From positions 62,001 to 126,000 of the forward strand of contig VWRR01000017.1 of NCBI GenBank assembly GCA_013995675.1: 64,000 nucleotides of DNA, written 5' to 3'. The position numbers and the translations under genes were made by a program. Shown here piece after piece: positions 3,276 through 36,044 of this stretch. The notes below the pieces were generated by a model. It saw nothing but the letters and a program-made list of their open reading frames with translations, was not told the origin of the DNA and ran no database searches. The stretch is from Cyanidiococcus yangmingshanensis. Taxonomy: Eukaryota; Rhodophyta; Bangiophyceae; Cyanidiales; Cyanidiaceae. Each line of letters begins with the position of its first letter. The first letter of the stretch is position 1.

Positions 3276-4643
3276 TTCGCCAGCAAAGCAAAGATACACG
3301 CGTCACGACGCTCAGGAACCGTCTGTATGTCAAAAGGCACCTGGCAGGAGTGCTTCGTCCGGAGCGACCAGCGCGTTCGTCAACGGCACCGCAGTGACCT
3401 ACACACTAGACACTAGCGTGAAAAAGCCTTCAACCACTACAAGCCAGGACACGGAGTGTTCGAGTCTACAGGAAGCTCGCGCACGCTTGGGTGCCTGCAC
3501 AGCGACGCTACGACCAACCCCGAAACAGAGCAGCGCGCCGCGTCAACGCCAGTGACTTTGTCGAAAGAGGAGCAGTAGGCACCAACGTTTACGTTCGATG
3601 CAGCTTACTAAACTTCAACCTTATTCGAGCACTCCGCTACCAACCAAGGTCAGAAACGTCCACAGCAGTCTCGAGGCAAACAATCGCGCGGCGAGGCGCT
3701 TCAGGCACATCCAACGTTCGGGCAGCGTCCCCCCGGCCGCGACTGCTTGACGGGACCCAACGCGACGCGGTTGGGGATGTCCATAAATAACCTAAAATGT
3801 TGCTAAATGTTCGTCTCTATCCTTTCTATTGCTATGGTTGTTGTCTGTGCGTATCGGACGCCGCTTCGGCGCTGACTACCTGACGGGAACCGACTCCACC
3901 CCATTGGAGGAGATCAGCCACCAATAGACTGAGAACTTGTTTAAGGTTCTTACCGATCATGCCTCAGGTTGCGTATGCATGGCGATTGTGCCTCGCGTGT
4001 CCGCTCGCGGAGAATGTCGCTGCGACAACAACGTACGATGCGTATTCGGTTGCGCTTGTCATCGCCAGCGATCGCCAGTTCAGGACTGTACCCGATGGGC
4101 AGAGAATCTGTCTACCCCTATTCACGCATCACCGGATCGAATGCCAGAAACCTCCATAAAAGGGCGTGACTGTTTCGCCACGACCAGCTTGAGAAAACAT
4201 CTCTAGAGGAAAATCGTAGCACCGATAGCGCAAGCAGACACACACCGAAACGCTATGGAATGAAGTGCATCGCTGGCCCCGTCCCCGCGCAAGGGAAACA
4301 CATCACCAAGGCCGCCGACAACCAACGGTTTTTCTTCCTCCCTGAATCGATGTCTCAGCAGACGACGACGTTCCATACGCCATACCGAGCAACGACGCCC
4401 AAACAATTCACCCAGACGCTCGTCTCTGTCCTCAAGACATGTCTTGGTTGTCTATGCGCTCGGGCGACGAGCGATCTACCCGACATCGTCGGACGTTAGG
4501 AGCCCGCAGCGACCGAACCCGAGGAACGCACGATCGAATCGCAGCGTGTCCGGCCGCCGTTGCGCGCGAGGCCGAACGTTTTTTTGAATTCCCGTTCGGG
4601 ATTTGGGTCCTTGGCGCTGTGCCGTTGCAGCGATCCTTCAACC
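3276..4643. other. intergenic stretch between HRD1 and SMC2 (divergent)
   Basis: This 1.4 kb region separates two divergently transcribed genes and should hold both promoters. Reading frames are short and unconvincing. Around 3720-3920 there are several G/C-rich segments that could fold, but I cannot assign an RNA family. No tRNA-like T-arm is present. Confidence 0.4.
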
Positions 4644-7600
4644 ATGTTTCTGAAAGAGATTATTTTAGACGGGTTTAAATCTTATGCTCATCGTACCGTT
4701 TTGTCGGGGTTGGATCCTTATTTCAATTCTATCAGCGGTCCGAATGGTAGCGGGAAATCAGCGATTCTGGATGCGATCTGTTTTGTGCTGGGTATGACGC
4801 ATCTGCCGTCGTTGCGAGTTGGTGGGCTTCAGGAGCTCATCTATAAGAACGGGCAAGCCGGAGTGCAGCGCGCGTCTGTGACGCTCGTTTTCGACAACAC
4901 GGACGTTGTGTCGTCTCCTGTTGGCTATGAGAACTGTCCGGAGATTACGGTAACGCGTCAAGTCGTGCTCGGTGGTCGCAGCAAGTACCTGGTGAACGGC
5001 CATGTCGCGCAGCCGGCCAAGGTTCAAAACCTGTTCCATTCTGTTCAACTGAACGTGAATAATCCACACTTTTTGATCATGCAGGGTCGGATTACGAAAG
5101 TTATCAACATGAAGCCCCAGGAGCTGTTGAGTATGTTGGAGGAGGCTGCCGGCACGAGTATGTACGAGGTGAAGAAGACGGCTGCTCTGAAAACGATCGA
5201 GAAAAAGCAGCGGAAAGTGGACGAGATCAACACGCTTCTGTTGGAGGAAATTACTCCATCTTTGGAGAAACTGCGAGAGGAGCGGGAGCGGTTTCTGCAC
5301 TGGTCTGCAAACAACGCAGAAATGGAGCGGCTCCGTCGTATTGTTGCGTTACAAGCGTATGCCCAGGCCAAGGAGCAAGTCAATCGACTCGAGACGGAGG
5401 AGGCGGCATTGAACACAGAGCTTCAAGGCCTCGAAAAAGAGCAGGCGCAAGCGAATACAGCACTCAAGGCCCTACAAGCACAAGGCGGCGCTGCGAAGCG
5501 CGACCGGGAGGCGAAACAGCTACAGCAACAGGAAGACCACGTGGCCACCTTGGATAAGGAGATTGTGAAGGAGCGTACGCTGCTGGACCATTTGCATGCA
5601 TCGTTGATGGCAGAGCGGAACCAGCAAAGGGCGCTCCAACAAGGAAGCGAGCGCTTGGCCAAGGCGGTGACAGAGCTAACGTCGCGGCACCAGGGAGCTG
5701 GTGCCGCAGGTCGAGGAGCGGCGCCAGCAGGCAAAGCAGGCTAATGAAAAGTGGCGGACACTTTCCGAGGCCTCAGCGTTTCGCTCCCGCACGGAGCTGA
5801 TCGCCTTCGGCGCGACAACAAGTTACGCTTGCGCAGACCGAAGAGGAGAATAGCAAGCTCGCACTAGATGCGGCGCGGTGCGAACTCGAGAGGCACGCCA
5901 AACGTGCCACAGCTGCTCGTGCTCTGGAGGCAGAGCTTTCCAAGGCAGAAAAAGCCGTCTCTTCGGTGAAGTTGCAGCTGCATGAGCTCGACTATGACCA
6001 TATCGCGGCTGAGAAGCTACGCCAGCGCCGCCATACAGAGGAACAGGCCGTGCACGCCCTTCGCGACCGCCTGGATCGTCTCTCCGCCCGGTTGGCTCTG
6101 ATCGACTTTACGTATCAGGTTCCTGAGGCCAACTTTGAGCCCAGCCAGGTGAAAGGTGTTGTCGCTCGTCTCGTGCAGCTACAGCATACCGAGTTTGCCA
6201 CCGCGATTGAGATTGCTGCCGGTTCCAAGCTCTTCTACGTCATTGTAGACAATGAGCAGACTGGCAAGCTTCTCCTGGAACGGGGCCAACTCACCCGCCG
6301 AGTCACCATGATTCCATTGAACCGCATTGACGACAAAGTCCTTGAACCAGAGCGTGTTCGTCGTGCCCAGCAAGCGGGTGGGAACCTCGCCCTGGCGCTC
6401 ATTCGTTTCGATGATGAGCTCGAGCCCGCGATGCGTTACGTCTTCGGGCGAACGCTGGTCTGTGACGGTATTGAACAAGCCAAGCAGTTGGCTTTCTCAG
6501 AGCGTATCCGCTGCCGAACGGTGAACGCGAGATGGAGACCTCGTTGATCCGCAGGGCACCATGACGGGGGGAGCGCGAGAAAGCACACCATCGATTCTCG
6601 CTCGCGTTGCCGAGTACACAGAGGGAATGGCGGAGCTGCAGTTGCGGGAGCGCGCCCTGGTAAAGACGGAGGAGGAGCTTCATCAGCTGGAGCAGAAAGC
6701 AGATGAGTACGGTCGTCTGACCACAGCGCTCGCCATGCGACAAGGCGAAGTTGAGGCAATCCGGGCGCGCATGCTTGCCGAGCCCTTTCTCAAGTCCAAG
6801 ACCCTGGTATCGAAGCTCGAGATCGCAGCTACAAGAGCATGCCGAAAAACGACAACTGGCTGAGCGAAGGCTCGCTGAGCTCGACTCTGGAACAGACCTG
6901 GGCGCTCAGGATCTTGCCGAGGCAAAAGCATTCGCGGAGCAGCAGCAGCAGCTCCTGCAGGAGCAGGAGGCCCAGCTTCAACGCCTTAATCGACAGATGG
7001 AATCCGCTCAGAGCGAGCTCGCAGATACAGCAAAGCGTCTCGAGCAATGTGAACGAACGATGGCGCAACTGGAGACCGACATCCAACGCTCGGGACGTCG
7101 CCTGGAGCAGGAACTCGAACCAGCCCATCGTTCGGCGCAGGAGCAGTTGCAGCAGCTTCGGGAGACGCTGTTGGTCGAGGCTCAAGAGCAAGCGCACCGC
7201 ATGGAACGCATGGGTGCTCTTGGAAATCGAATGGAGAGCTTGGCGTTGGAGATCAAACGCCGACAGCTGCGTCTCGCTGACCTCGGAGAGGCGCTCACCC
7301 ATGGACGTCGGGAGGTTGCGCGCCTTGAGGCCGAGCACCCATCTCTTTCGCGCTCCGCTGGAGACGTTTCCGTGGTTGACGCGGAGGAAATCACGCGGGC
7401 CCAGCAACAACTGGCTCGCTTGAGTTCCGAGAACCAGTCCCTCGGCAGACGAATCAATCGGCGTGCTTTGAGCCTTTTCGAGAAATCCGAACAAGAATAC
7501 CAAGACCTCATGAACAAGAAACGCATCATCGAAAACGACAAGCAGAAAATTTACGCGGCCATTCGTGGCCTAGACGAAAAGAAGCGGCTGGCTCTTGAAG

Positions 7601-8211
7601 CGACCTGGCATCGAGTGAACCAAGACCTGAGTGCGATCTTTTCCACCCTGCTTCCCGGTGCAGATGCCCGTCTTGATCGCCTGGCCGGGAGTCAGTCGAT
7701 GTTGGATGGTCTCGAGCTCCGAGTCGCGATGGGCAATACCTGGAAAGACTCGTTGGCCGAGCTCAGTGGCGGACAACGCTCGCTTGTCGCCCTCAGCCTG
7801 GTGCTCGCCATGCTCAAGTTCAAACCGGCACCAATGTACATCCTTGACGAGATCGACGCGGCGTTGGACCTGAGCCACACCCAGAACGTGGGCCAGGTCA
7901 TTCGTCGATCGTTCCGCGACAGTCAGTTTATCATTGTGAGCCTCAAGCCGGCATTGTTCGAGCACGCAAACGTAGTCTTTCGAACGAAACTTGTCCAGGG
8001 GGCATCGACGGTGACACGCGCTGCCTTGTCGCAGCGGGACCAGGCACCAACGTCGCCAAGTTTATTAAGGGTCTCGAACGCAACCGACAGAGCGACGACG
8101 AGATCCAAGGTACTAGTCTGCCGAGCCCCAACGGCTGCCCATGACGACACGATGCCGGAGGAGGAGGACACCAAGGCCACGCAGGCGCCTTCTCCTGCCC
8201 TGGTCCGCTGA
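4644..8211 (+). CDS. SMC2: condensin ATPase subunit SMC2 (four +1 frame changes)
   Basis: SMC2 pairs with SMC4 as the ATPase core of condensin and compacts mitotic chromosomes. The N-terminus reads [14 protein letters not shown], the family's typical opening, with Walker A GPNGSGKS at residues 32-39. A long coiled coil, a hinge (about 6130-6550), a second coiled coil, the ABC signature LSGGQRSL (about 7760) and Walker [12 protein letters not shown] (about 7838-7870) follow in the right order, with a divergent tail of about 70 residues. The start ATG is set by this conserved opening. The coding line moves +1 four times: near 5690, 5800, 6525 and 6815. Both sides of each change carry SMC-like sequence, and deleting one base at each restores one frame. 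With all key motifs intact this is more likely a working gene with consensus errors than a pseudogene. Confidence 0.93.
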
Positions 8212-8898: not shown

Positions 8899-8902
8899 AA
8901 AA
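8899..8902 (-). terminator. oligo-T RNA polymerase III terminator
   Basis: Four T residues on the minus strand begin four bases after the discriminator base of the tRNA-Arg gene. This is the minimum usual Pol III stop signal. It lies inside the 19 bp between the tRNA and the PSMB3 start codon. Confidence 0.6.
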
Positions 8903-8906
8903 CGAA

Positions 8907-9104
8907 CGCGACGGAAGGGACTCGAACCCTCAATCTTCGGTTGAAGCTCCTTGTAGCACCCGAGGGAGTCGGATGGGTGTGCCCGACGACGAGCGCCTGG
9001 GCGAGCCGGAGACCAACGCTTTCGATGGACGGCGCGACACGGCCGGTAATCCATTTGCGGCAACGGGATTGCGATTCAGCGGGGACCCGTAAAGCCACCG
9101 TCGC
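8907..9104 (-). tRNA. tRNA-Arg(CCG) gene split by three introns
   Basis: I rebuilt this by hand on the minus strand. Exons are 9104-9094, 9058-9047, 9019-9006 and 8942-8907, together 73 nt, the normal length before CCA addition. Acceptor strands GCGACGG and CCGTCGC pair in all seven positions, with discriminator G. The D-loop holds ATGGATTA, as in many Arg tRNAs. The anticodon stem TTGGT/ACCGA encloses a loop CTCCGGA with anticodon CCG at 9009-9007. The variable region is AGATT and the T-arm carries the TTCGAGT loop. The introns are 35, 27 and 63 nt; the first two lie at or within the D-arm and the third at the canonical 37/38 position. The exact edges of the D-arm introns can slide by a few bases. 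Disrupted tRNA genes with D-arm introns are known from Cyanidioschyzon. An oligo-T terminator follows. Confidence 0.85.
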
Positions 9105-9238
9105 GCGTTACGCTCGGTAAAATGGTTCAGAATCGGCATATAAAGCGGTCTATGCGATCTCGGTACGCGAATGGATGGTATGCGTGCGGGCGTTGATGCG
9201 TGATGAATCGGCCTGTGCGTGTCGCTTGAACGGAGGTG

Positions 9239-18919: not shown

Positions 18920-19556
18920 TGACCAAGCGAGCTCAGACAATGCGTTTCGAGTAACTAGACTTGGTGCTGGCCGCAGACGCGAGCCAATAAACCACGGACG
19001 GCTTGATCGACTAGTTGCAGCCCTCTTGGCGCCGTGATTTACAGCTCGTGCATATCACTTGGCTTCATCCAAGCCAAGGGATAACTCTGTTCAAGCCAGC
19101 GACTCGCGCCCAAGCCCAGTCGACCTCGACCGGAGCAGTTCAGTGCCCTGGCACGAGCTTCAAAAACGCTCTGGGCTCGGGAAGCAACCACCAGGTCGAT
19201 GTTACGAACAAGCTCGACTCTCAAACAGGGCAAGGAGGCTGCTTGCTCTGACGACGACGACAACTGATCGACCCTGCTTGATCCTGAAACGTCTCCGAGT
19301 CTGCACGAGCCGAGACCCACTCGTAACCGCAACGCGTGCGCGAGCCGGGCAACGCACCGAGAGAGCGCGCAGTCTGGGGACCCCCGCTACCCGAGCGTCT
19401 AGACGATTCAGGACGGGATAGAGGCTGTTGAGGCCCTTGTGGCTTGCGTTCAGTAGGCGGCAGAAGGTGCTCGGTTTCTCTACAGGTTCGTCTTGTTGCT
19501 TTCTGGGATTAGGGTATTGAAACCGTACGTTGATCAGCGGAACGTCAGCGCTGGCA
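18920..19556. other. divergent intergenic stretch
   Basis: This is the promoter region shared by the GNAT gene and HRD3. A long minus-strand open frame crossing into HRD3 is its antisense shadow. No other gene is seen. Confidence 0.5.
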
Positions 19557-22500
19557 ATGACTGGCCGAGAACGTGGTCCAAGGCGGAGCCCTCGTTGGAG
19601 AGCGTCACTACGCTCTGCCTTCGTTCTGTGGGTGCTCTTTTGGTTGATCGGTTTCGTTATTTTGCACGGTCTACGGATCAGTGAAGCAAAAACACCAGCG
19701 GTTCCGCAGTCATCAGCAGCCAGTGAGACGGCTAGGAGTCCAGGCACTCGAACTGCGGCCGTTGAAGGGACGAACTCGGTTACCTGGACGGAACGCGCAC
19801 CAGCGTTTGGTGTGCAGCGGCCAAGCGCTGACGCCTCATCGACATCCAAGCCAGACAAGGTTAATGAAGACGTTGTCTCTGCAGAAAAGGTGGACTCGAT
19901 ACCAGCATCCGGCTTTTTGACGCCGACTTGGCGACAACGTAGAAACCCAGCGCCGAGTACGAGCGCACAAGCGACCGTCGGGAGACTGGCAACGGGACCA
20001 TTCGGCAGCAAGCCATCTCCAGCAGATAACCAACGACAAGAGAACCAGGCAGATCGAGCTCCGCAGGGCAGCGCGCTTGCTCGAGACGAGTCCCACTCCA
20101 CAGCAACATCTTCGTCGGAGAACTCGAATAGTCAACCGGCTCCTCCACCTGTGACAAATAGTGTGAGGAATGTATCCGAAACGATGCCATTGAGCGAGCA
20201 TGACGAAGAGCTTCTCGAGATCGTTGACGAGCACTCGGCCAACGACGTGCCCCTGGACGTTGCTACCGAAAGCGTCCTTGAAACGCAATCTGCAACGAGG
20301 ACTAGAGAAAGGACGATGCAGCATCGGCCCGTTCCTTTGACACAACAAGTACCATTCGTAGATGCAGCTTCACGGTTGGAGGCAAATGCGGATCCAATTC
20401 GTGATCATCGCGAGGACGAGCACCGCAGACTGAAAGACGAGGCTGCTGCTGCTGCTGCTGCCACCTCGGTCACAGTTGTTGACAAAGACCAAATTCGAGA
20501 CGGAGCGAAAGAAGACATACATGATGATCAGTTCTCAGATACACACAAAACCAGCGTTGCGTCTACAGGAATCGCTTCAGCAGACGCTGCGATGATGGAA
20601 GACTCCGTCACCGAAGCCTTCGTTTCCCCGACAAAGGCCGCTCCCGTTCCCCACCAGACCGAAATCCAGCATCCTCAACCGCTGCCGAGTACGGCGCTCT
20701 CCATGGAAACCTTCCTTAGCCTTCTTGGCTGGCGCTTGAATGGCCACCAAGTTGAGCAACTGACGCAACAAGTATCCGATGAGCAGCAAGCGATGGATGA
20801 TCGACAGATCGCCTTGTATGCCCTCGAGATTATCCAAGAGGTGTTGCGTCTGGATGCTCAACTCATGGAACTGATTCCTCACTCGGATCGAGCACCCATG
20901 CTTGACGACTGGTGGCCGGCACTCAAAGAGCGTACCACGATGGAAGTTCTACAGCTAACCACGCAGCTGCAACTGGTTCGTCTCCAGGTGGGACCACCAG
21001 CACAACACTCGAATCCGGATCCGACACCGAGTGCTCGTCTCTTTCGCCATCGTCTGGATGCGCTCGCTGCTGAACTCGATGCCTCGTTTGAAGCAATGAT
21101 GATCCTCGTGGAGCGCGGTGAACAACATCTCTTTGCGCTGGCAACACCCCAGGGATTGAACTTGGTTGAACTGCGTCCGCTCAAGGAGCGGATCACCCGT
21201 TGGCGAATGCGAATGCAGAAAGAACGAGCGAAACTTCAGCGACGTCTATTGGACTTTGATCGTGCAGCGAGTCCGTGGCCAACAGCAGCCGCTGAAGAGC
21301 TGCCCAGGCAGACGAAAACCCTATCACCACTGGTGGCAGACGCTTCATCCGGCACTGATCATTCAGATCCTGTTCAGGAGGCGATGAACACCACAGCACC
21401 GAGCAGCCATCAAACATCGACCGGGGAGCCGCGCTCCCAGCCAGCGTCCTGGGTGACCCAAGTCGAACAGCTGTGGCGAACCAAGGCTGATCTCGTTCGG
21501 ATTCAGGAGATTCTGGAGACCGCTGCTGACTCGGGTGATGTCGTCGCCAGCAGCACACTAGCACGCCTGCTCTGGTTTGGCGACAGTGAACGTCTCTTTA
21601 GACCGAATCGCTCACGAGCACTGCACTATTTGCAGCAGGCAGTCGCTGCAGGCCAGCCAGATGCCCACGACTTGGCAGCGACCTTGGAACTGGTGAACGG
21701 AAACGCCTCCTCTCTGAAGCGGGCGTTGTTGCACGTTCATCGCGCAGCAATGGACGGACAAGCGCATGCCCAAATGGTGGTCGCGTTTCGTTACCTGTAC
21801 GGCCTTGGTGGCCTCCCAGAGGACTGCAACCAAGCGGTGCGCTTCTATCGCCTGGCAGCGGCGCATGCGGTGCACGACACCGCCACGACCAATGACCCGA
21901 GTCGCTACGAACCACGTGCAGTCCCTGCGTTTGCATCGAAAGCGATGGAATCAGAACTGAATCTGGAGCGAGAGATCCGTCGTCGAACGCTACGCTTTCG
22001 AAGAACGATGCCTCTGGAAGCATTTCGTCTCTCCGCCGAAGATGCGAGACGCATTCGCCGCTTTGCTACACAACGACGACGTTTCTGGGCGAACATGGCT
22101 GCCAAGGCATCCGAGACCAGTTTCATCGGTGACGAGCAGCGGATCAGGGTCTGATTCGGCGGCCAACGATCCACCAGACTGGTTGGAGATGCTGCGAACG
22201 GCTACCTCGGAAACGATATGGCCCACCGACGCACCCGAGGCAATGACGTCCACACACTGGTCGATGATTCCAGGTGCGGACGCTCTAGACGACGAACGTG
22301 AATTGATCGAGTACTATCGACACGCAGCAGAACGAGGAGACGTTCGAGCGCAAGTTGCGATGGGTCAGTTGCTGTTGCAGGGAGCTCCAGGACTGGCGCC
22401 AGATCCCAATCAAGCGTTTCAGTACCTAAGGCGCGCCGCTCAGGCCGGTGATCCACATGCCCACGTATACTTGGCCACCATGTATAGTCAAGGATTGGGT

Positions 22501-23685
22501 GTAACCCCCAACAATGAATCAGCATTGTGGCATTATCGGGTAGCCGCAGCGCGTCGAGAGCCAACCGCGTTGAACGCCCTCGGCCATCTCTACTTGTGGG
22601 GCATCGGCGTCGAACGGAATGGCCACGAAGCGGCCCGGCTCTTCCGTGCAGCGGCTGCTCAGGGCCATATCGAGGCCAAGTACAATCTCGGTATCCTCCA
22701 TCAGAACGGTATCGGGGTAGAACGACGAGATCAACATCAAGCGTTGATCTGTTTTGTGGAGGCAGCCCGAGCAGGTCATCGGCGAGCTGCCTGGAAAGCC
22801 GCCCTCCTCATGCAGGCCGGTGTGACGCAGAGCACCTGTGTCGATATCGCTTTGAGCTTTCGACGAGTTGCTGAAGATGGACGTGCTGTACGCATGTTCC
22901 TAGAACGAGCTCGCTGGCTTGTCGAGCAGAGCGGACTCGTCTCGTCCCGTGGATCGCGAGTACGTCGCCGAGTGTCCCCAGAGCAGGTCGCAGCCATGTT
23001 GGACGAGGCGCTGTGGCGAACCGTGCAAGCTGCCTGGGCTGGCGTCGAAGTCGCGCAGTATAACGCTGCCTTGTTGTACGCCTCCTGGATGCAGGATGAG
23101 CAACAGGCGCTCCAGTACTGGCTCTTGGCCTCGCTGAATGGACATCGTCAAGCGATGATTGAGGCTGGAGACCTCCTCTATCGATGGCAGGAGCGTGAAC
23201 GCTGGCCTGTATCCGTAGCCTGGTCCTGGTCAGGTGCCGATCGACAACGCGTCTCTGCCGTTGACTGCTATCGACAGGCAGCGGAGCTGGGTACAGCGGA
23301 GGCCTTGTTTAACCTCGGCTATCTGCATATGCGCGGTCGTGGTGGGGCTGTCTTCGACCCCCACCTAGCGCAACGGTATTTGGAAGCGGCTCGAGCGATT
23401 GATGCCAAGGAGGCGTGGCTCGCTGCCACCCTTGCACTCTTTTGGCTCCGTCTGGAACAAATGGGGCAGCGTTTATCGCCATGGTATCGATGGCGTCCTG
23501 GTTTTGGACGCATCCGCGGTGAAGACGTCAGATCGTTTTGGCGTTCCTATCGCCCTCGAGTGGTGCTTGTGCTGTTGGGATTTTTGGGATGTGCCCTGGC
23601 AGCGAAATGGTGGATTCGTCGACATCTCCAACCATCGAACACAATGCAGAGAGAACGACCGAGCATCCATTTACATCGAGAGTGA
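19557..23685 (+). CDS. HRD3: HRD3/SEL1L, Sel1-repeat partner of HRD1 (one +1 frame change)
   Basis: HRD3 (SEL1L in animals) is the lumenal, membrane-anchored subunit that stabilises HRD1 and delivers misfolded glycoproteins to it. The protein starts with a signal-anchor (about residues 18-40), then a long acidic, Ser/Thr-rich lumenal region with an Ala run. Sel1-type TPR repeats begin near 21520 and include the HRD3-specific FRYLYGLGGLP element with a following Cys (near 21790). A second block of repeats at about 22300-23450 ends before a C-terminal transmembrane helix (about 23560-23625), the expected topology. The coding line shifts +1 once within 22042-22154, between the two repeat blocks; both sides are Sel1-like, so the gene is one unit. 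The first in-frame ATG at 19557 was chosen. Confidence 0.88.
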
Positions 23686-24203: not shown

Positions 24204-27200
24204 TCAACGAGCATAACCTGCTCGATCGCCACTGCAAGTCTCATACACCAGTTGGGATTCGGGTGGTCGCGCTCGATGCCATACCAGGTGAGCACGTTGC
24301 ACCTGCAGGGTCGATACGGCTCGCTCCTCGCCACCTTGATGATGATCGTTGCCGTCAACCGTGGCCACTGGCCTCAGAGCACATGAATGTACACCCGTGC
24401 GATGCCCGTCAATTGTGCGCTGACCACAAGCCTCTTCGGAGAGACCAACAGAGACCATGCCAGTCCCGAGGGGTACCGGCCTCCCCATAATCACTCGTTC
24501 GCTGACGCCTTGAATCCGATCCGAACGGGTTCGCAGCGCTGCTTCAAACAGGTGATCGACGGTCTTCTCGAAACTGGCCAGCATGAGGGTGCTCTGACGC
24601 ATCTTGCCAATACCAAAGCGTGTGATACCCAAGACCTCGCCGCCAAAAGTCATCATGTCGGCCAACAAGTTCACATGCCGCGCGTCCACCGTCACACCAT
24701 GCGCAGCCATGGTCTCTAGGATCTCTTTCACCATGGTCGTTCGCGCTGCTTCAATGCCAAGGACACGCTCAACGACCAGCACATGGTTACAGAACACGCG
24801 AGTCGGATCCACTCCTTCCGTATTCATGATCGAGCGCATATCTTCGCTTTCGGCGAGCAACTGAACGGACGAGGCATGGTCAAGCGAGAACCCATCGGAG
24901 ACACTGGCACTGGGCGGAAGCTGGCTTAGGACCACGCGTCGAATGCTGGGGAGACCACTCACCACCAGTTCGAGTAGACGACGCTGTAGCTGGGAGAGTT
25001 CGCGCTCTATATCCTGGAACGATGTTCGACGATCCGAAAACAACGAGGAGCGACGTGCAGAACGCGTCCCGCAATCAGCTGCTGCCGTTGGCCATACCTG
25101 CAAGTGAACAGTTCCGTCCACCTCCCGATGGATGCGCAGACCACTCGATGATATAGGACGTTGCGTTGGATCTGGGGCTGGCCAATGCAACTGCGCCCGT
25201 AGCCGACGCAGCAACGGTACCTCGACTGCATCCTCGCGCTTGAGCGCCTTGTTGACGCCTACGACGAGACCTTGCTCCTGAGCGAACACCTCGTCGAGCA
25301 CGTAATCGAGATAGGCATCCTGGCGCTGCCAACGAATCTCTCCGTACCGAACGACCTGGCCCAGACGACGACACTCCAAACGAGTGCGAACAGCCCGGGC
25401 GAGCTCCAGCGTGCTCCTATTTGGCACCTTGTCCAGAGCAGCGGTGACCAAGGGTGTCGAGATATGACGCGTAGCATTGACCAGTTCCTTGATCCGCGGA
25501 ACGCCCTGAGTGATGTTCATGCTTGCTACACCAGCGAAATGGAACGTTTTGAGTGTCATCTGTGTGGATGGTTCACCGATAGACTGGGCAGCAATGGCCC
25601 CGACCGCAGTGCCCGGTTGGATCAAGGCCCGTTGCAATTTGCGCTCTACCAGAACCATGAAGCGTTGCCACTGGCGATCATGGAGCGGACCTCGAGTCGC
25701 AATCGATTCGGCTGCAGCCTCCCGCACTCTTTCAGGCCAGGTACTTGGAATAGGAATCGAAGCCAAACGATCGGTTGTTGTCTTGTTCCGCTCGCTGTTC
25801 TCCATGGTGAGCAGGCGCGTCGGTGTCAACATGCTTGTTGGAATCGTGCTAGGTCCGGTATCGCGAACAAGAGGCTCTTCACGGCGCACGGTTGGAGAGC
25901 GCACTTGGGCATCCAAAGCGACCGCTTCGTGCGCGTCCAGCCACTGGATGGTGTTCCAGAGCCGTTCCCAGTCGATCGCTTGACCGTGCATCGCTTCCAT
26001 CTCGAGGGGATCGAGTCCATCGCCACCGTAACGAAACTGAACGACACCAGCATTGCTCGTTCTCACGGTACCGTCGTACGCTACGCGCAAATCTTCCAGC
26101 GCTTTCATGAAGCGACGTTGCATGTAACCTGTTTCAGCAGTCTTGACAGCTGTATCTACGAGGCCTTCGCGACCGGCCATGGAGTGAAAGAAGAACTCGA
26201 TCGCGTTCATGCCAGCGTAGAACGAGTTTGCTACAAATCCACCTGCTTCCGGTGACTTGTCTCCTCGCGGAAAATGAGGCAAGGTACGTTGCTGGAAGCC
26301 CGATCGAACCCGAGTGCCATTCACGGTCTGTTGACCTACACAGGCCACCATCTGGCTGATGTTGATGGTGCTACCTTTGGCCCCACTCATGGCCATGATC
26401 ATGGCCGCGTTCTCTGGGGCCATATCCTGCAGGCAGAGCTGCCCAGCTTGCTCACGTAGATCACTCAAAAGTCGATGAATATGCCACTCAAGCGTCTCTT
26501 CGTCCGTACAGCCGGGTCGTGGTCGCATCGTGCCCTGGCGATACCGATCGATCGCTGACTGAACTTGCCGATAGGCGTCGTGAATCCTCTCTGCCTTGGC
26601 CTGTTCGAGTGCCACAGATGGACGAACCTCATCAATACCAAAACTGAAACCGTATTCGGAGAGCCAACGACTGGCGAAACGAGCAAGTCGATTCATACAA
26701 CGAGCAGCGACCATTGGGCCCGCCTCTCGATGCAGCACGTAGAGTAGAGCGCTCTTCGACTGGGCACCGATCGTTCGTTTCGCGACTTGGCCACAGACGA
26801 GTTCCGCGGCGCGTACACAGACGTAGGCATCGGCTGGACACCAGCATTTGTCCCCGATATAGCCCTTTTCTGCTGCGTCACAACAGATGAGGGCACGTAT
26901 CTCGGCGTTGGCGAGCAGCTCATCGGCCTGGACCATGGCCGAAAAGAGTTGTTTGCCCGTCCACAGCGGCTCAGGGTGGAGCACTGCCGGTTCGGGCAGT
27001 CTGGGCTGGAACAGCTGCTGGTGTCTGTGGCTCAAGCGCCCAGACCAGGCACTGCGCGGCTGCCTGTCGACCGTAGAAAACATCCTTATGGGTCAAAAGA
27101 TACAGCGCCGTGATGAAATCTTGGGTGCATGCGATAAGCGGTTCACCGTTTCGCGGCGAGAGGAGGTTGTTACATACCGCGAGCAGCTCCATGGCTTCGG

Positions 27201-29529
27201 CTCGGGCCTCCTCCGTCTGCGGAACGTGTAAATTCATTTCATCACCGTCAAAGTCGGCATTGTAGGGTGCACAGACGCATTCATTGAATCGAAACGTTCG
27301 CCCAGCGATGACTTTGACTCGATGCGCCATGATAGAGAGTCGATGCAGGGACGGTTGTCGATTAAAGAGAACAATGTCCCCGTCGATGAGGTGTCGCTCA
27401 ACCACACAGCCGGGGAGCAGTCCCCTGGCAATCTCTTCACGGTCTCCAAAGCGAAGGAAGCGCTTGCTTCCGTCGGGAAACAGAACATAGTTCGCGCCGG
27501 GATGACGATCAGGGCCACGGAGGATACACGCTCGGAGACGATCGATGTTGAAGGGTGTCACACGTTCTGGGTAGGTAAGGACCCTGGCGATACGGAGTGG
27601 AACACCAACCTGGTCGATCGATAGGTTCGGGTCAGGCGAAATCACCGTGCGAGCAGAAAAGTCGACCCGTTTTCCCGAAAGATTGCCTCGAAAACGCCCC
27701 TGCTTGCCTTTGAGTCGCTGACAGAGCCCAATCTGGGCCTTGTAGTATAGACCAGAGGGCAGACCTGGGTATTCGGCGTGGATGTAACGAGCAACTGCCA
27801 ACTGCAGATGATCCCAGGCATCCATGAGTTTGCCTAGATCAGCGCCTTTGACCAGTTGTTCGAGAACGAGCGTGTTCGCTCCAGCAATATCGGCCAGCAT
27901 GACGGTAAGGTCATCCTCCGTGCTGCCTTGGGAGGGATCACTGCAGACGCTGGGACGAATGCAAACTGGCGGAACAGCTACACAGCGTAGCAGGAGGTCC
28001 TCTGGTCGACACACTTCCGGATTCATCCCCAACGCCTCGATATCCGATGGAGTCATGTTGCGAAACAACTCCAGGACGTGCATTGGCGTCAGCTCGAGCG
28101 AGTATCGAGCTCGCCTCTCTCTGCTCGATGCAGCGCCATCGATTGCTTTCTGGCCGGTCTGTCTCGTGACTCCAGTGCTGGCACTAGCAGTTTTCGCGAA
28201 AGTTGCATCCGGACCGTCATCTTCGATATCAAACATCGCTTCTTGGCCAAAATGCCAAGCTCTTTCTCGAGACAGCGTCATCGAGACAGACGTTCCAGAG
28301 GCATCGCTGAGACGCTCGTTCCAACGGGACAAGTAACGCTGAAGCTGATGCCATTGCCGTTGACTCCAGCCGGCTCGCGGAGTGAGTTCATGCACCAGTC
28401 GTGGCGCTCCTGTCGACGTAGACGGGTTGCGTCGTTGTCCACCACCACCGGCACCACCGGCACTGGCACGAGACCCAGACCCAAGGCTGTCTCTCGTGAT
28501 CGCCGCTGATGTTGTTGTGTTTGATGCCAGCCACTCGCGACCGCTAGTGACTTTGCGAACGAGACCATTCGGGGCCCCACAATGACGACAAATCGCGGAT
28601 CGTTTGGCCCACTCCACATGACGTTTCAGAAGAGCCTGCAAATGACCAGGTGTCTCCCGCTCTCGTCGACGGCGTTGTTGTCGATGCAGGGAATCGACAA
28701 AATGCTCCTCGACAAGCAAGCGACTACATCGTTTGCAGATGCACTGGAGAATCTGGAGCAGGTAACCCAAATATCCGACATGAAAAACTGGTAAGACGAG
28801 TTCTATATGGCCAAAATGACCAGCACAATCTGCAAGTGAGCGTCCACAGGTTGCACAACGGTCGTTCTTATCGCTGATACCGAGATGCTTGTCCAGGGCC
28901 CCGTGCGGCACCACATCGTGTTCCGGGGTGTACAGCTGTTTCCGTGTGATTTCGATAACCGAGGCCCGTCGAATATCGTCTACTGAGGGAACCTCAAACT
29001 GGATGGCTTCCAGACTCCCCGAAAGTACCTGGGTATCGTCTCGTAGCGTCGCTGGACAGGTGGACAGCGCTCGTCGTAACTGCTCCCGCTCTACCAACAG
29101 GCGATGGAGTTGCGCATATGGTGTTCGGGTGCTCGTCAAACTCCATTCTCCTTGGTCTGGTGATGCAAACGAAGGGCCTTGTGTCGGCAAAGACGATACT
29201 TTTCGACGAAGCTGTTCTAGCTGAAGCTCGATCTGAACGAGTTCCTGACGCGCTCGAAATATCTCTCGCAGGCGTTGCCAAGCAGTCACCGCAGTCGGTC
29301 GAGGCTCATGCGACTCGTGCACAAACGTGTAACTTCCGTAGATGGAGGCATCGAAGGGGACAGCCCGTGAAAATCCGCTACGAAAGGTTTCAAGCAGGTC
29401 CGTACCCAGTTGGCGTCGATCACACGCTGAGCGCCTGCCAGCGCCTAATTGGACTTGTTCAGCGGTGCACGGAACACCAGTATCCATAAGACTTGCCCCT
29501 GCAACGTCACTCAACTTGGTTGAAGACAT
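24204..29529 (-). CDS. RPC1: RNA polymerase III largest subunit RPC1 (one +1 frame change)
   Basis: This is the largest catalytic subunit of Pol III, which makes tRNA, 5S rRNA and other small RNAs. The Zn-binding clamp (CATCGRSLADCAGHFGH, near 28830-28870) and the following cysteine-rich segment are of Pol III rather than Pol I or II type. The active-site loop NADFDGD binds catalytic Mg (near 27260). The LWTGKQ segment and the trigger-loop region with GEPSTQMTLKTFHFAG (near 25540-25590) follow. Unusually, about 175 residues, partly coiled coil, precede the start of homology at FEVPSVDDI, whereas yeast RPC1 begins close to it. The frame changes +1 between about 26995 and 27040, just before LPEPAVLHP, so the stop of the first frame is not the site. 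The last 90 residues are not conserved. ATG at 29529 chosen because the earlier start is not ATG. Confidence 0.93.
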
Positions 29530-31289
29530 CCATGGGTTCCGCGCCAACGCACTGCTAACTTGGACGGAAGGGGACGCTCCAGCAGCGGCGAAGTGGGCGT
29601 GATCTCTGCAGACGCACCCAACCAGGCAGTGGTTTCTTCACGTGCTCTCCAGCCGATGTTGTCTCCCAGAAAGTAGCGCTCCACGAATCAACAGAATGTT
29701 TGCAAAAGTTCAGAAAGATCGTTCGAATGAACCCTCGGCAAGGCTTGTCGACTAGCGTCGTTCTAGTGGGGAATACGGCGAGCGCGTTGGCGCTCCGACT
29801 GGCCATGATGTCCGAAAAGGGCTCGTGAAAGAAATCATGGTCGTCACATAGATGAATATAGAGTAGGCTGAGCTTGAATGGTTTCTTGAGACCTTGATGC
29901 ATCTCCGTTGGTGCTCTAGTGCTTCGCGGATCTGGCTTGACTCGGTCTAGTGTCACTGGTAATGGGAAACATCGACAAACATGGAAGCCAAACGGCCTGG
30001 CCACCCAAGAATGGCTTTGTCTCAGTTAGTTCGGATGGTTCGCATCCAACAGCATCCCGTGCGGCTCTGTCGAGATCTTTTCTGTAGATAAACGATTGCG
30101 TCCAACGACAGCAAATCCGGATACGACTCGTCTCGGGTTTATCTCGAAACCTAGTTGAAGGAGTGATGTTTGCCTGCTGGCAAGCCCCCGAGAACCGATG
30201 CATCCCCCAGACGTCAGCGAGTCGTACTCGATTCGACGAACCAACGACCACCGTCCTTGTCATCATTCAATAACGAAGCACCGTTCAAAGCGAGTAAATA
30301 TATGCAGTATGACCGGAATCATAACCCATGTTTGTCTAAGACTATTGTCGCGGCGAAACGAGACGGGGTCGCAGAGCCATTCGGGCACAAACCACGGTAC
30401 AATACTGGTGTTGTATCGAGCGAGTTTTGGCCTGGCAGTAACGGCTAGAGGAAACCAGATCAAGGCAGCGATTTCGGAACATTGGTTTGAAGCGGAGCTG
30501 GATAAGAGGTTGGGACTCGTTCATAGGATACGATCATTCCTCACTGGTGTTTGTGCTAGGAACTGAACGATTTCGGGTCTGGTGTGGAAACGGAAACGCC
30601 CGAACTTTGGCAGCAGCGAGACAGGGAGCCTTCATCACTCTGGGGCGTACACAAACGTTTCTATCGTGCAAGTGCCTCGCTCGTTGGGAAAGATTCGCTG
30701 GGAGAAGAATCAACAGAACGAGTGTTTTGGCGATACACTCGGATAGGCTAAAAGGTTGAAACGGACGTTTTTGCAAAAGTTGCGGTCTTGCTAGAGCAAG
30801 ACGTTGATCACGGTGGACTGCCCGATCATTTTTTGTCTTGAAAGGGCATCATTCGAGCCCCTGACTGCAGCACATTACACGGGTCTGGTTTGGCGAGCTC
30901 AGGCAACTGCTTGTGAGGCCCGTAGAGCATTGTTTCGCGAACCGCAACGCGCTCGGTAAGGATCTTTGGGGTAACAACGTGAGCGCGTGGCCAACGAGCT
31001 CGTGCGTACTGGACGTCTTCGGCTTGAGCGGCAAGCACCGATCAGCCTTCCAGTGTGTGGCCAGTAAACACTGGTGTGTGAAACCGAACAAGACGAGCTT
31101 CGACGAACGCTTCACGACGGTGCTTTGAGGCCTTGCGAAACCATAGCAAAAAAGCCTTGCAACATTCCGGTATCGTGTCGACGCACTCGTCTTTGGACGA
31201 GCTCGCTCTAACGGAGGAACGCAAGCTCTTCAGAGAATCCTTGCGTCCATCGTCGAGTGCAGTCGTAACGAGCATGCTGCAACCAAGCG
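29530..31289. other. long divergent intergenic stretch between RPC1 and dnaE
   Basis: About 1.76 kb between two divergent starts. Only small, unconvincing frames are present. It must contain both promoters. I looked for tRNA T-arms and known snRNA motifs and found none. Confidence 0.4.
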
Positions 31290-34200
31290 ATGGATGCTCT
31301 CAGTTTCGTTCCCATTGCACCGCAAGCATCGTCTCTTGGTCGCAAGCGGAGCTCCTGTCTTCGCAGTCGAACTCGTTGGCAACGACAGCGCTCCTGGTGT
31401 ATCGCCAACGAGTCTCTCTGGAACATCGATCGAGTCGATCATGCTGATGGGAACGCGCCTCTGTCCGTCCATGCATCAAGTCGACCCGAGTCCAGCATGA
31501 TTGGCTCAACAAGCACGCTGGAGAGAGCACCACCAGCCGACCTGTCCACAAAAACTGACCAGAATGACACACTAGTCGTTCCCGGAGACGACCAAGCTCA
31601 ACATCGCGCGATAGCGTCCGAGGCGGATAAAGCGCGCTCACGCTACGTCTATGCACCGCTGCATGTGCACTCAGACTATTCGCTGCTGGATGGGGCATCC
31701 CATATTAAGGATCTGGTTTCGAGGGCCATTGAGTTGAGGTGTCCGGCACTCGCGCTCACGGACCATGGAGTCATGTTTGGAGCAGTGGAACTTATACGGC
31801 AGGTTCGCGACCAGACCAGAGAGGCTGGCTCGACCATGAAACCCATCATCGGCAACGAGATGTACTACATCAACGCCGATGTCATCAGGGATCAGTATGC
31901 ACTCCGCAAGGGCGAAGTACGCAAATACCATCTCGTTGTCCTGGCCTATAACCTGGCCGGATACAGGAACTTGTGCAGGATTACATCGCTTTCCCATCTC
32001 GAGGGCGTGCAGGGACGTGGCATTCTGAAACGGCCATGTATCCACAAGGTCTGGCTAGCGCAGCATCGTGAGGGCCTCATCGTCACTTCGGCATGCCTGG
32101 CTGGAGAGATTCCTCGTGCACTCGCCCAGGACGACTTTGAATCCGCTCGAAGGGTGGCAATGTGGTTTCGAGATACGTTTGGTCCCAATTTCTACCTCGA
32201 GTTGCAGGATCATGGCGATGAGATCTATCGCAAAGTCAATCTGGGGCTGGTGCGACTCTCGCGGGAGCTCCATATTGAACTGGTGGCGACGAACGACTCA
32301 CACTTTACTCTGGAGAGCGATGCCAAGGCCCACGACGCCCTCATCTGTATCCAGACTGGTAAGCGCGTCGTCGATGTGAAACGCCTGCGCTACAGTGGTA
32401 CAGAATACCTGAAATCCTACTTTGAAATGCGTGACCTTTTTCTGGACTATATTGATGAAGACTTGGTCGAACGTGCGCTTTGGAATACGGTTCGTATCGC
32501 CGAACAGGTCGACTTGCCGGTCGATGAGCTCATTGGGGTAGAGATTCGCTTACCAGCGTTTCGCCCTCTGGCCCCCGGTGTAAGTGCAGATGATCACCTG
32601 CGAGCGCTCTGCATGTACATGCTGATCTTTGAACGCAACCTACCCTATTACGGTAGCTATAAGGAACGATTTGATCATGAGCTGAGGGAGATTGCTCGAC
32701 TTGGCTTCTCTGATTACTTTCTCATCGTCCACGACTACATTACCTTCGCGAGGCGCGAGAACATTCCCATTGGGCCTGGTCGGGGCTCGGCAGCCAGCTC
32801 CCTGGTAGCCTATCTCCTGCGAATCACGGATGTGGATCCAATACGTCACAATCTGCTCTTTGAACGTTTTCTGAACTTGGATCGGCGATCACTACCCGAT
32901 GTCGATACCGACTTTAGCATGGAGGGTCGCGAGCGAGTCATGGCCTACGTCATGGCCAAGTACGGTGCTGCCTATGTTGCCCAGATCATTACATTCAATC
33001 GCTTGAACTCACGTTCTGTGGTGCGGGATGTCGCTCGAGTGCTCGGTGTTCCACAACGCGAGGCCAACTACATGTCCAAGCTGATTCCCATCGATCGGGG
33101 CAGTGCCGCTTCGATCGATTCGCTTATCGATCCATCGGCAGGGACGTACTGGGCACGGCAGTTTCGCAAACGTTACGAGGCCAGTCCTTCGACGCGCAGT
33201 TGGGTCGATGCTGCCAGACGACTCGAAGGTGTCAACAAATCCTACGGTGTTCACGCCGCGGGTATTGTGGTCGGTGCGGAACCGTTGGCCTCGATGGTGC
33301 CACTCACGCGAGGCAGCTCGGGCGAGATTATCACTCAATACACCATGGAGGACGTCGAGCAGATGGGCATGCTTAAGATGGATTTCCTGGGTCTTCGAAA
33401 TCTCTCGGTCATTGAGCAGACCTGTGCACTGATCCGGGAGATCTACGGGCTGGATGTGGATCCCAGCGAAATCCCCGAAGATGATCCCGCGACCTATGAG
33501 CTTATGTGTCGCGCCGACCTCGACGGAGTCTTTCAGTTCGAGTCGTATGGCATTCGTCGGGTTGTGCAGGAGGTACGGCCCGTGAGTATTGACGACTTGT
33601 CGGCTGTGCTGGCGCTCTATCGTCCGGGGCCTCTCGACGCTGGCCTTTTGGATGCCTACCTGGACTTTCGATATCGACGCAAGCCAGTCGAGTATGACCA
33701 TCCGATGCTTGCACCGATCCTCCAGGAAACCTACGGCATCATGCTCTATCAGGAGCAAATCATGGCCCTCGCTAGGACGATTGCGGGCTATACCATGAGT
33801 CAGGCGGACACACTCCGTCGCGCCATGGGCAAGAAGAAGCCCGACGAGATGGCATACCATCGCAAGGCATTTGTCGAGGGTGCCATGCGGCGTTGTTCGT
33901 TTCCCGAAGACTTTGCAACCTTCCTCTTCGACAAGATGGCCGTGTACGCGGACTATTGCTTCAACAAGTCCCATTCAATCTCGTACTCGGGAATTACGCT
34001 CCAGACAGCGTGGTTGAAAGCCCATTTTCCGGCCGAGTTTGTATGTGCACTACTGAACACGAGCCTTCAGAACAACGACAATGACCGGTTCATGCGTTAT
34101 CTCTACTCGGCCATGGATGAAACCGGTCTCTCGATTCGTCTACCATCGGTGAATCGTTCTGATCTGTGGTTCATTCCCGATTGGGCCGCAAAACGTCCCG

Positions 34201-36044
34201 GCGATGGAGGATATGGTGAACCTCCCGCCCGGCCGCGCTCGGTGCTCTTCGGCTTGGCAGCGATCAAGAACCTCACCATGCGAGAGGCCGAGGCGATCGT
34301 GCAAGAGCGGCGGCGGCGGCGACGACCCTATGCTTCGCTCGCGGACGTCTGTTTGCGTTTGCCAATCAGCGATACAGAGGTGCTGGTGCCCACCGAGATG
34401 CCCGCAGCCGCATCACGACAGCCGGAGCCGTCGACAGAACCTTTCTTCATCAGCAAGGGTGCGCTGGAGGTTCTCATTCATGCTGGCGCCTTTGACTTTC
34501 AGCATTGGAGTCGAAACGCTCTGATCGAGTCGTTGGATGACACGCTGGAGTGGGCGATGCAGGTGCGTCGATTCGTGAAAGCATCCGACGACAGCGACTG
34601 GGAAAAGTCGGCTGCAGCTGTCGCTCAAGTCAGCGAATACATTCTCGAATCTGCGACGCGAGAACAGTACGCTGAACTGTTGGCGACTGCTCCAGGCCCG
34701 GACGAGGATCTGTTTGGATCCGTCAATGAGAGGAGCGCGGATGATGAGTTCGAGGAAATATCGCCGCTGGAAATGATGGAGGAAGAGTACGCGGCACTAG
34801 GCATCTACCTGACGGGGACTCCACTCTTGGCAGTGCGGTCCGTCATTGTGATGCTGCTGCCGGATCTGATCAGTATGATTCATCCAGATCCTGATTTGGG
34901 CATTGCAGGTCCGAGCTACCGCAACCTCGTCCGGTCGCTGCGTCGTGCGATGACCATGAGAAGCCTCCAGTCGGCGTTTCCAGACATGATGCGAGACATT
35001 CAGCTGCCGCCGCACGTAGATGGAGCTGTGGATGAGGCCCTGAACCTCGTTCGGGAGGAACTACTCCCCAGTTCGGAGCTGAATTGGGAGCTGGCCGAGG
35101 CCATGGCCGCCTACTACGACGGCGATAACGATGAAGACCTCGCGGACATCCGTGCAAGACATGGTTTTGATGACGCGGAAGCTTCGAACCTCAAGACAGA
35201 GGGTGCCTTTCCGAAGGGAACCATGCCCTGTGATCTGTTGCGTGGCGAGGGTGCTGAGATCGCCGTCATACCGAATGAACTCTTGAGCCTGAGTGCGGAT
35301 CCGTTCAGTGAGAGCGAGCGCATTCGACGCGCACGTGACCTCTTTCAGGGTCGAATCGCCAACGAGAGCACGACCGACTGGGTGCCAGAGGATAAGCGCA
35401 TTGTCTTGCGCGAGGGACATGAGTTCTTCGGTCTCGTCATGCTACAAATATTCAAGGTAACGGAAGGACCCAACAGGGGTGCACCCGTCGCGCTCGCACG
35501 GATCGAAGATCATCTCGGCAGTCGCGTCAAGGCGGTGCTATACAACAGGACCTATCGACGGGTACAGGCGTTTCTCCAAAGCGAGGATGTCCAGGGACCA
35601 TTTGCAATTCATGGGTATCTGGCTCGTCAGCGTTTTGGCCCATTTGGCGAGGAAGAGGAGACCGAAATGGTCATAGAGCATGCGATCCCCTTACAGGACT
35701 TTTGTTTTCTATACATCCAGCTTAGACCGGAGACGCTCACCGACGGATCGGCCGAGGACCAGCACGATGCGGAACGAATCATGCCGTCAGCGAGACAGGT
35801 CCTGAATGCGCTCGATGAATGGCACCGGCGCGACGCTGAACAGCTCATGACCATGAAATCGCGTTCAAGGCGGGCCAGCTACCCGTGGCCAGTTGTGGTT
35901 GACCTCGTCGAACCCGCACACGAAATCATCTGTCGTATGCGTTTGACGCCCTCCCAGGGCGTTCGCGATGTCGATGGCATAGCAAAGCACCTCCAGGAGC
36001 TGGGTGTCGACGCCCAGGTAATTCGCTTCTGCTTCAAAAGATAG
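31290..36044 (+). CDS. dnaE: DNA polymerase III alpha subunit (DnaE-type), probably plastid-targeted
   Basis: A bacterial family C replicative polymerase in an otherwise eukaryotic neighbourhood. The 1584-residue product has about 115 N-terminal residues resembling a transit peptide (basic, Ser-rich). A PHP domain follows with LHVHSDYS (His125, His127), then the palm with GPGRGSAAS at 495-503 and P-D-V-D-T-D-F at 536-542. The third catalytic Asp lies in KMDFLGL (about 698). RPGPLDAGL, MGKKKPDEM and the FNKSHS segment complete the fingers; an OB-fold lies near the C-terminus (about 35400-35680). Bacterial DnaE is about 1160 residues; the excess is the N-terminus plus an acidic insert of about 200 residues (about 34840-35400) after LGIYLTGTPL. 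No split or intein is seen. I infer work on plastid DNA. The frame is fully intact. Confidence 0.93.
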   Translation: MDALSFVPIAPQASSLGRKRSSCLRSRTRWQRQRSWCIANESLWNIDRVDHADGNAPLSVHASSRPESSMIGSTSTLERAPPADLSTKTDQNDTLVVPGDDQAQHRAIASEADKARSRYVYAPLHVHSDYSLLDGASHIKDLVSRAIELRCPALALTDHGVMFGAVELIRQVRDQTREAGSTMKPIIGNEMYYINADVIRDQYALRKGEVRKYHLVVLAYNLAGYRNLCRITSLSHLEGVQGRGILKRPCIHKVWLAQHREGLIVTSACLAGEIPRALAQDDFESARRVAMWFRDTFGPNFYLELQDHGDEIYRKVNLGLVRLSRELHIELVATNDSHFTLESDAKAHDALICIQTGKRVVDVKRLRYSGTEYLKSYFEMRDLFLDYIDEDLVERALWNTVRIAEQVDLPVDELIGVEIRLPAFRPLAPGVSADDHLRALCMYMLIFERNLPYYGSYKERFDHELREIARLGFSDYFLIVHDYITFARRENIPIGPGRGSAASSLVAYLLRITDVDPIRHNLLFERFLNLDRRSLPDVDTDFSMEGRERVMAYVMAKYGAAYVAQIITFNRLNSRSVVRDVARVLGVPQREANYMSKLIPIDRGSAASIDSLIDPSAGTYWARQFRKRYEASPSTRSWVDAARRLEGVNKSYGVHAAGIVVGAEPLASMVPLTRGSSGEIITQYTMEDVEQMGMLKMDFLGLRNLSVIEQTCALIREIYGLDVDPSEIPEDDPATYELMCRADLDGVFQFESYGIRRVVQEVRPVSIDDLSAVLALYRPGPLDAGLLDAYLDFRYRRKPVEYDHPMLAPILQETYGIMLYQEQIMALARTIAGYTMSQADTLRRAMGKKKPDEMAYHRKAFVEGAMRRCSFPEDFATFLFDKMAVYADYCFNKSHSISYSGITLQTAWLKAHFPAEFVCALLNTSLQNNDNDRFMRYLYSAMDETGLSIRLPSVNRSDLWFIPDWAAKRPGDGGYGEPPARPRSVLFGLAAIKNLTMREAEAIVQERRRRRRPYASLADVCLRLPISDTEVLVPTEMPAAASRQPEPSTEPFFISKGALEVLIHAGAFDFQHWSRNALIESLDDTLEWAMQVRRFVKASDDSDWEKSAAAVAQVSEYILESATREQYAELLATAPGPDEDLFGSVNERSADDEFEEISPLEMMEEEYAALGIYLTGTPLLAVRSVIVMLLPDLISMIHPDPDLGIAGPSYRNLVRSLRRAMTMRSLQSAFPDMMRDIQLPPHVDGAVDEALNLVREELLPSSELNWELAEAMAAYYDGDNDEDLADIRARHGFDDAEASNLKTEGAFPKGTMPCDLLRGEGAEIAVIPNELLSLSADPFSESERIRRARDLFQGRIANESTTDWVPEDKRIVLREGHEFFGLVMLQIFKVTEGPNRGAPVALARIEDHLGSRVKAVLYNRTYRRVQAFLQSEDVQGPFAIHGYLARQRFGPFGEEEETEMVIEHAIPLQDFCFLYIQLRPETLTDGSAEDQHDAERIMPSARQVLNALDEWHRRDAEQLMTMKSRSRRASYPWPVVVDLVEPAHEIICRMRLTPSQGVRDVDGIAKHLQELGVDAQVIRFCFKR

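Follow-up and report, generated by a model that had tools for sequence, protein, structure and literature searches.

The stretch of DNA analysed here (the window, 64,000 nucleotides) carries pieces of a tRNA scattered over almost two hundred nucleotides of its minus strand. This raises the question of whether they belong to a single interrupted gene and, if so, where the interruptions lie and how they could be removed. The locus is almost certainly a tRNA-Arg gene in four pieces: of its three small introns, two interrupt the D-arm and enclose an exon of 7 nt. Its anatomy, cloverleaf, homology, bulge-helix-bulge (BHB)-like pairing at introns 1 and 2, and flanking signals can be read directly from the DNA. 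Very probably, it serves a red alga of the Cyanidioschyzon/Cyanidiococcus type as a functional nuclear tRNA-Arg(CCG) gene, expressed through the TATA-driven, stepwise-spliced pathway proposed below.

An initial annotation had placed a tRNA-Arg gene with anticodon CCG, four exons, three introns and a 73-nt product on the minus strand at 8907-9104, and reconstruction of the splicing confirmed this. Removing introns of 36, 26 and 63 nt joins exons of 13, 7, 17 and 36 nt into the 73-nt product, and the decomposition into exons and introns is unique for the mature sequence chosen. In order of transcription, the features are as follows.

9137..9144, minus strand: TATA-like element TTTATATG, 33-40 nt upstream of the tRNA 5' end
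9104 to 8907, minus strand: tRNA-Arg(CCG) gene, 198-nt precursor
9092..9104, minus strand: exon 1, positions 1-13 (acceptor 5' strand, U8, G9, D-stem 5' strand)
9056..9091, minus strand: intron 1, 36 nt, at 13/14; BHB central helix TGGC/GCCG (one G-U)
9049..9055, minus strand: exon 2, 7 nt, AATGGAT, positions 14-20a, including G18G19
9023..9048, minus strand: intron 2, 26 nt, at 20a/21; BHB central helix ATGG/CCAT
9006..9022, minus strand: exon 3, positions 21-37 (D-stem 3' strand, anticodon-stem 5' strand, CCG, G37)
8943..9005, minus strand: intron 3, 63 nt, at the canonical 37/38 site; relaxed splice-site structure
8907..8942, minus strand: exon 4, positions 38-73, with G73 last and CCA not encoded (anticodon-stem 3' strand, variable loop, intact T-arm/B-box, acceptor 3' strand)
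8899..8902, minus strand: TTTT, probably terminating RNA polymerase III transcription, separated from G73 by 4 nt

Once joined, the exons provide each of the 21 cloverleaf pairs, including two G-U pairs, in acceptor, D, anticodon and T stems of 7, 4, 5 and 5 bp, respectively. The ends had been said to pair over seven bases, and they do so perfectly, with GCGACGG at the start facing CCGTCGC, followed by G73, at the end. The T-arm is intact (GAGGG TTCGAGT CCCTT), and the conserved positions listed in PMC3978253, namely U8, G18G19, U33, U54U55C56 and R15:Y48 (here A15:U48), are all present in the joined sequence when it is read by eye. The bases behind G73 are TTCG, so no CCA is encoded. Against the human tRNA-Arg CCG/TCG isodecoder, in the form printed in PMC9889914, the joined exons are identical at 55 of 73 positions in an ungapped comparison; the D-loop AATGGATA, the variable loop AGATT and the entire T-arm are the same in both. 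Once artificial flanks had been added, ARAGORN called tRNA-Arg(ccg) both on the fully spliced sequence and on the gene with introns 1 and 2 removed, in the latter case with a 63-nt intron. Removal of intron 1 only led the same program to call tRNA-Pro(cgg), which was taken as an artefact of intron 2 sequence. The minimum of the predicted folding energy for the mature sequence (MFE -26.4 kcal/mol) is not the cloverleaf, which scores -24.1 kcal/mol. Two other kinds of element were considered and rejected. The exons lie in linear order with the 5' half first, which is not the arrangement of a circularly permuted tRNA gene, and self-splicing group I/II introns are not indicated, as no Rfam family passed its gathering threshold anywhere in the window and the introns measure 26-63 nt.

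The flanks resemble those of Cyanidioschyzon merolae tRNA genes, which are described in PMC3978253 as having a TATA-like sequence at most 50 bp upstream and a T-stretch downstream; here, TTTATATG lies less than 50 bp upstream and TTTT follows the gene. TATA-like matches between -50 and -15 occur at 0.48% of random positions of the window, although the patterns behind this figure were picked after the sequence had been viewed, and TTTT falls within the next 15 nt at 2.8% of random positions. Intron 1 interrupts the internal A-box region, and because that region is split, a start driven by the upstream TATA-like element is proposed. RNA polymerase III would thus start from this element and end at TTTT. 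According to PMC3978253, TFC1 and TFC3 have no identified homologs in C. merolae.

A gene that appears only after three excisions calls for controls, as freely placed cuts give a reader many options and tRNA-like pieces might be assembled by eye from unrelated sequence. The expectation that standard scanners would miss the gene held for the two that were run: ARAGORN found no gene in the window and none in the 198-nt precursor even with introns allowed, and Rfam at its gathering cut-off returned nothing in the window. A strict scan, requiring a five-pair T-arm with a TTCRA core, a matching acceptor stem, U8 and a purine at position 9, gave a single match in the window, which was the tRNA-Arg(CCG) gene. 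In 200 Markov-resampled windows, the same scan, which considers the T-arm and acceptor alone, gave 0 linear matches and one permuted match. A loose B-box scan allowing one mismatch was not specific (27 matches against 17.7 expected, with 6 of 100 shuffles reaching 27). The human tRNA was also aligned to the window with up to three introns, each penalised. The score peaked at 23 with the alignment ending at 8907 on the minus strand, compared with at most 7 on the plus strand, at most 11 in 12 one-strand resampled windows and at most 7 with 8 shuffled templates. The top score anywhere on the minus strand rose from 1 without introns to 15, 19 and 23 with one, two and three introns, respectively. 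A chance assembly is therefore extremely improbable and, in practice, excluded. A 25-nt segment of exon 4 had 0 exact matches in a scan of prokaryotic genomes, a result that is uninformative for eukaryotes. The locus could instead be a relic or pseudogene that still looks intact while the intact gene lies elsewhere, and the search for other copies covered this window only. However, all 21 pairs are preserved and both flanking signals are in place, and we consider such a relic very unlikely.

Where exactly the D-arm junctions fall is less sharply defined. The claim that two introns lie in the D-arm was upheld, with cuts at 13/14 and 20a/21 and a one-base correction of the lengths: of the 35, 27 and 63 nt initially proposed, 63 was borne out, whereas homology replaces 35/27 with 36/26, each figure having been off by one. 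Among the splits tried, identity to the human tRNA reaches 55 of 73 positions with a 36/26 division and 51 of 73 with a 35/27 division. Within the best 12 of 828 splits, which had been filtered on exon-2/3 identity and at least 52 matches, 36/26/63 at 13, 20 and 37 is the sole split that combines 55 matches with all 21 pairs. Pairing at the junctions was assessed by a central-helix test, in which exon bases -6 to -3 face intron bases -6 to -3 between 3-nt bulges, and the 36/26 cuts give four of four pairs at both introns 1 and 2. A four-pair central helix occurs at about 2% of random cut pairs of equal spacing. Around intron 1, 11 of 100 cut pairs have four central pairs, the chosen one included. 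The chosen cut has an inner helix ACGGG/CCCGT of 5 bp with one slipped base, compared with 0 to 2 bp for the other ten, and no outer helix is formed with or without intron 2. Cuts leaving a 35-nt intron 1 pass at 9/44 (inner helix 0 bp) and 12/47 (inner helix 1 bp, mostly G-U) and fail at 13/48. Around intron 2, 4 of 110 cut pairs pass, the chosen one among them, and none of the four is 27 nt long.

A shift of one or two bases in a D-arm junction of an otherwise real gene is conceivable, though rather unlikely; a 24-nt intron 2, for instance, would give a 10-nt D-loop and a 75-nt tRNA. The many cuts near intron 1 that pass the central-helix test are in keeping with such a shift, as is the 24-nt cut at intron 2, which equals the 26-nt cut in its central helix (four of four pairs) and has a longer inner helix (4 versus 2). 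Because this cut is as good or better by BHB alone, the 26-nt length leans on homology too. Against a shift, the 36/26 cuts yield the human D-loop and the 73-nt length with no gap, and they turn the D-stem into an outer helix for intron 2, which has 0 bp while intron 1 is present and 4 bp once intron 1 is gone. Sequence reading GCTTAATGGATAAAGC at the junctions of the mature tRNA would speak against the shift. D-arm introns of 36 and 26 nt are therefore favoured, mainly on homology; the BHB evidence agrees, but is not sharp for intron 1. Two protein genes in the window have apparent frameshifts, so small indels may be present in the assembly, and these could have altered intron lengths by a base.

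Folding predictions for the D-arm introns depend on context. The intron 2 region folded alone takes another shape and does not form its hairpin, whereas with the cloverleaf imposed and intron 1 out, the hairpin persists in a fold 0.3 kcal/mol above the MFE. In an unconstrained fold of the 198-nt precursor, both D-arm hairpins are present and the anticodon and T arms are absent. The proposal that BHB motifs mark the junctions holds for the central helix at introns 1 and 2 and fails in its strict form at intron 3, where only relaxed alternatives were found. At 37/38, 1 of 4 central pairs forms. The one cut that passes in a grid of 104 would give a 61-nt intron and a 9-nt anticodon loop. A CTCC/GGAG helix requires a bulge of 5 nt on the 3' side and lies 3.6 kcal/mol above the best local fold, in which the anticodon stem is kept, the 3' cut lies in a 3-nt loop (TC|A) and the 5' cut falls inside a helix. 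Relaxed BHB forms such as 'no h' are described beside the strict hBHBh' in C. merolae (PMC3978253).

Under the preferred 36/26/63 division, the tRNA-splicing endonuclease would cut introns 1 (13/14) and 2 (20a/21) at their BHB structures and a ligase would seal the exons. Simultaneous cuts in the D-arm would free the 7-nt exon, so cutting and sealing one intron at a time is the simplest route. The predicted order is intron 1, intron 2 and, last, intron 3 at 37/38; in C. merolae, according to PMC3978253, the 37/38 motif is always the final substrate. Trimming of the ends, CCA addition and charging would then produce an ordinary tRNA reading CGG codons. The 7-nt exon between two D-arm introns is the least ordinary feature of the gene and suggests ordered splicing. 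More tentatively, and with considerable doubt, sequential removal may be built into the gene, with the two D-arm introns isolating the 7-nt exon and the loss of intron 1 completing the D-stem.

The window has a GC content of 55.6%. According to PMC9812998, the corresponding values are 55.0% in C. merolae and 54.6% in Cyanidiococcus, with 65.7% in Cyanidium and 37.5-40.2% in Galdieria. Together with the gene content, this makes Cyanidioschyzon or Cyanidiococcus a likely source. The eukaryotic nuclear genes in the window include those for a synoviolin-like ubiquitin ligase, an SMC protein, a U3-associated protein, a RIO-domain protein and the largest subunit of RNA polymerase III (RPC1), and ThiC and a squalene/phytoene synthase-family protein are also encoded. 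RPC1 (24204-29547, minus strand), identified by its best match in a comparison of the RNA polymerase reading frame with the PDB, is split into two overlapping ORFs, and its conserved sequence shifts frame near 27000, which suggests a frameshift or an assembly indel. The SMC-family gene (4560-8211, plus strand) seemingly runs over several frames with breaks near 5740-5800 and 6547-6721, which may reflect indels or introns. Two overlapping ORFs in different frames at 19530-23685 on the plus strand both contain Sel1 repeats and represent either a single frame-changed gene or two genes. Beside these eukaryotic nuclear genes, a 1584-aa ORF at 31290-36044 on the plus strand matches the bacterial-type DNA polymerase III alpha subunit and carries a PHP domain.

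Disrupted nuclear tRNA genes, for which Cyanidioschyzon is known according to the initial annotation, are indeed an established trait of C. merolae, where many tRNA genes are described with ectopic and multiple introns (PMC3978253, PMC4033280, PMC4090602, PMC9602550). PMC3978253 gives up to three introns per gene and lengths of 11-69 bp, a range that includes the 36, 26 and 63 nt found here. Among the literature matches listed, most of them judged by title and the start of the abstract, none concerned tRNA introns in Cyanidiococcus. The present gene adds to this window a tRNA gene missed by ARAGORN and Rfam, and offers a concrete example on which to study how several tRNA introns can be taken out one after the other in an alga while a 7-nt exon is retained. 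If the host is other than C. merolae 10D, the gene would also be useful for following how ectopic tRNA introns spread among these red algae.

Outside the red algae, tRNA genes with up to three introns, some at non-canonical sites, are reported from the Guillardia theta nucleomorph and from Crenarchaeota, which are different lineages from this alga; the non-canonical introns of the nucleomorph measure 3-24 nt and many have no defined BHB (PMC4090602, PMC4033280, PMC4390854). The permuted genes of C. merolae described in PMC3978253 share with the present gene a TATA-like box upstream and a T-stretch downstream. Neighbouring D-arm sites are used there, with a junction at 20/21 in permuted Leu(TAA) and an intron at 14/15 in Arg(CCT). 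However, in the gene described here the 5' half precedes the 3' half, and Arg(CCG) is absent from the 11 permuted genes in Table 1 of that paper. The gene may well appear already in the complete C. merolae catalogue published by Soma et al. 2013 (Sci Rep 3:2321). The three C. merolae genes with three introns are described in PMC9602550 as carrying them in the D-, anticodon- and T-arms; if that wording is exact, a gene with two D-arm introns and no T-arm intron is not one of them, and a layout with two D-arm introns around a 7-nt exon may be undescribed. The nuclear tRNA-Ile(UAU) gene of C. merolae, with introns at 12/13, 37/38 and 53/54 (PMC9602550), likewise has three introns and shares with the present gene an intron in the D-arm and one at 37/38. 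It differs in where the remaining interruption lies, as here both extra introns fall in the D-arm, at 13/14 and 20a/21, and the T-arm is uninterrupted.
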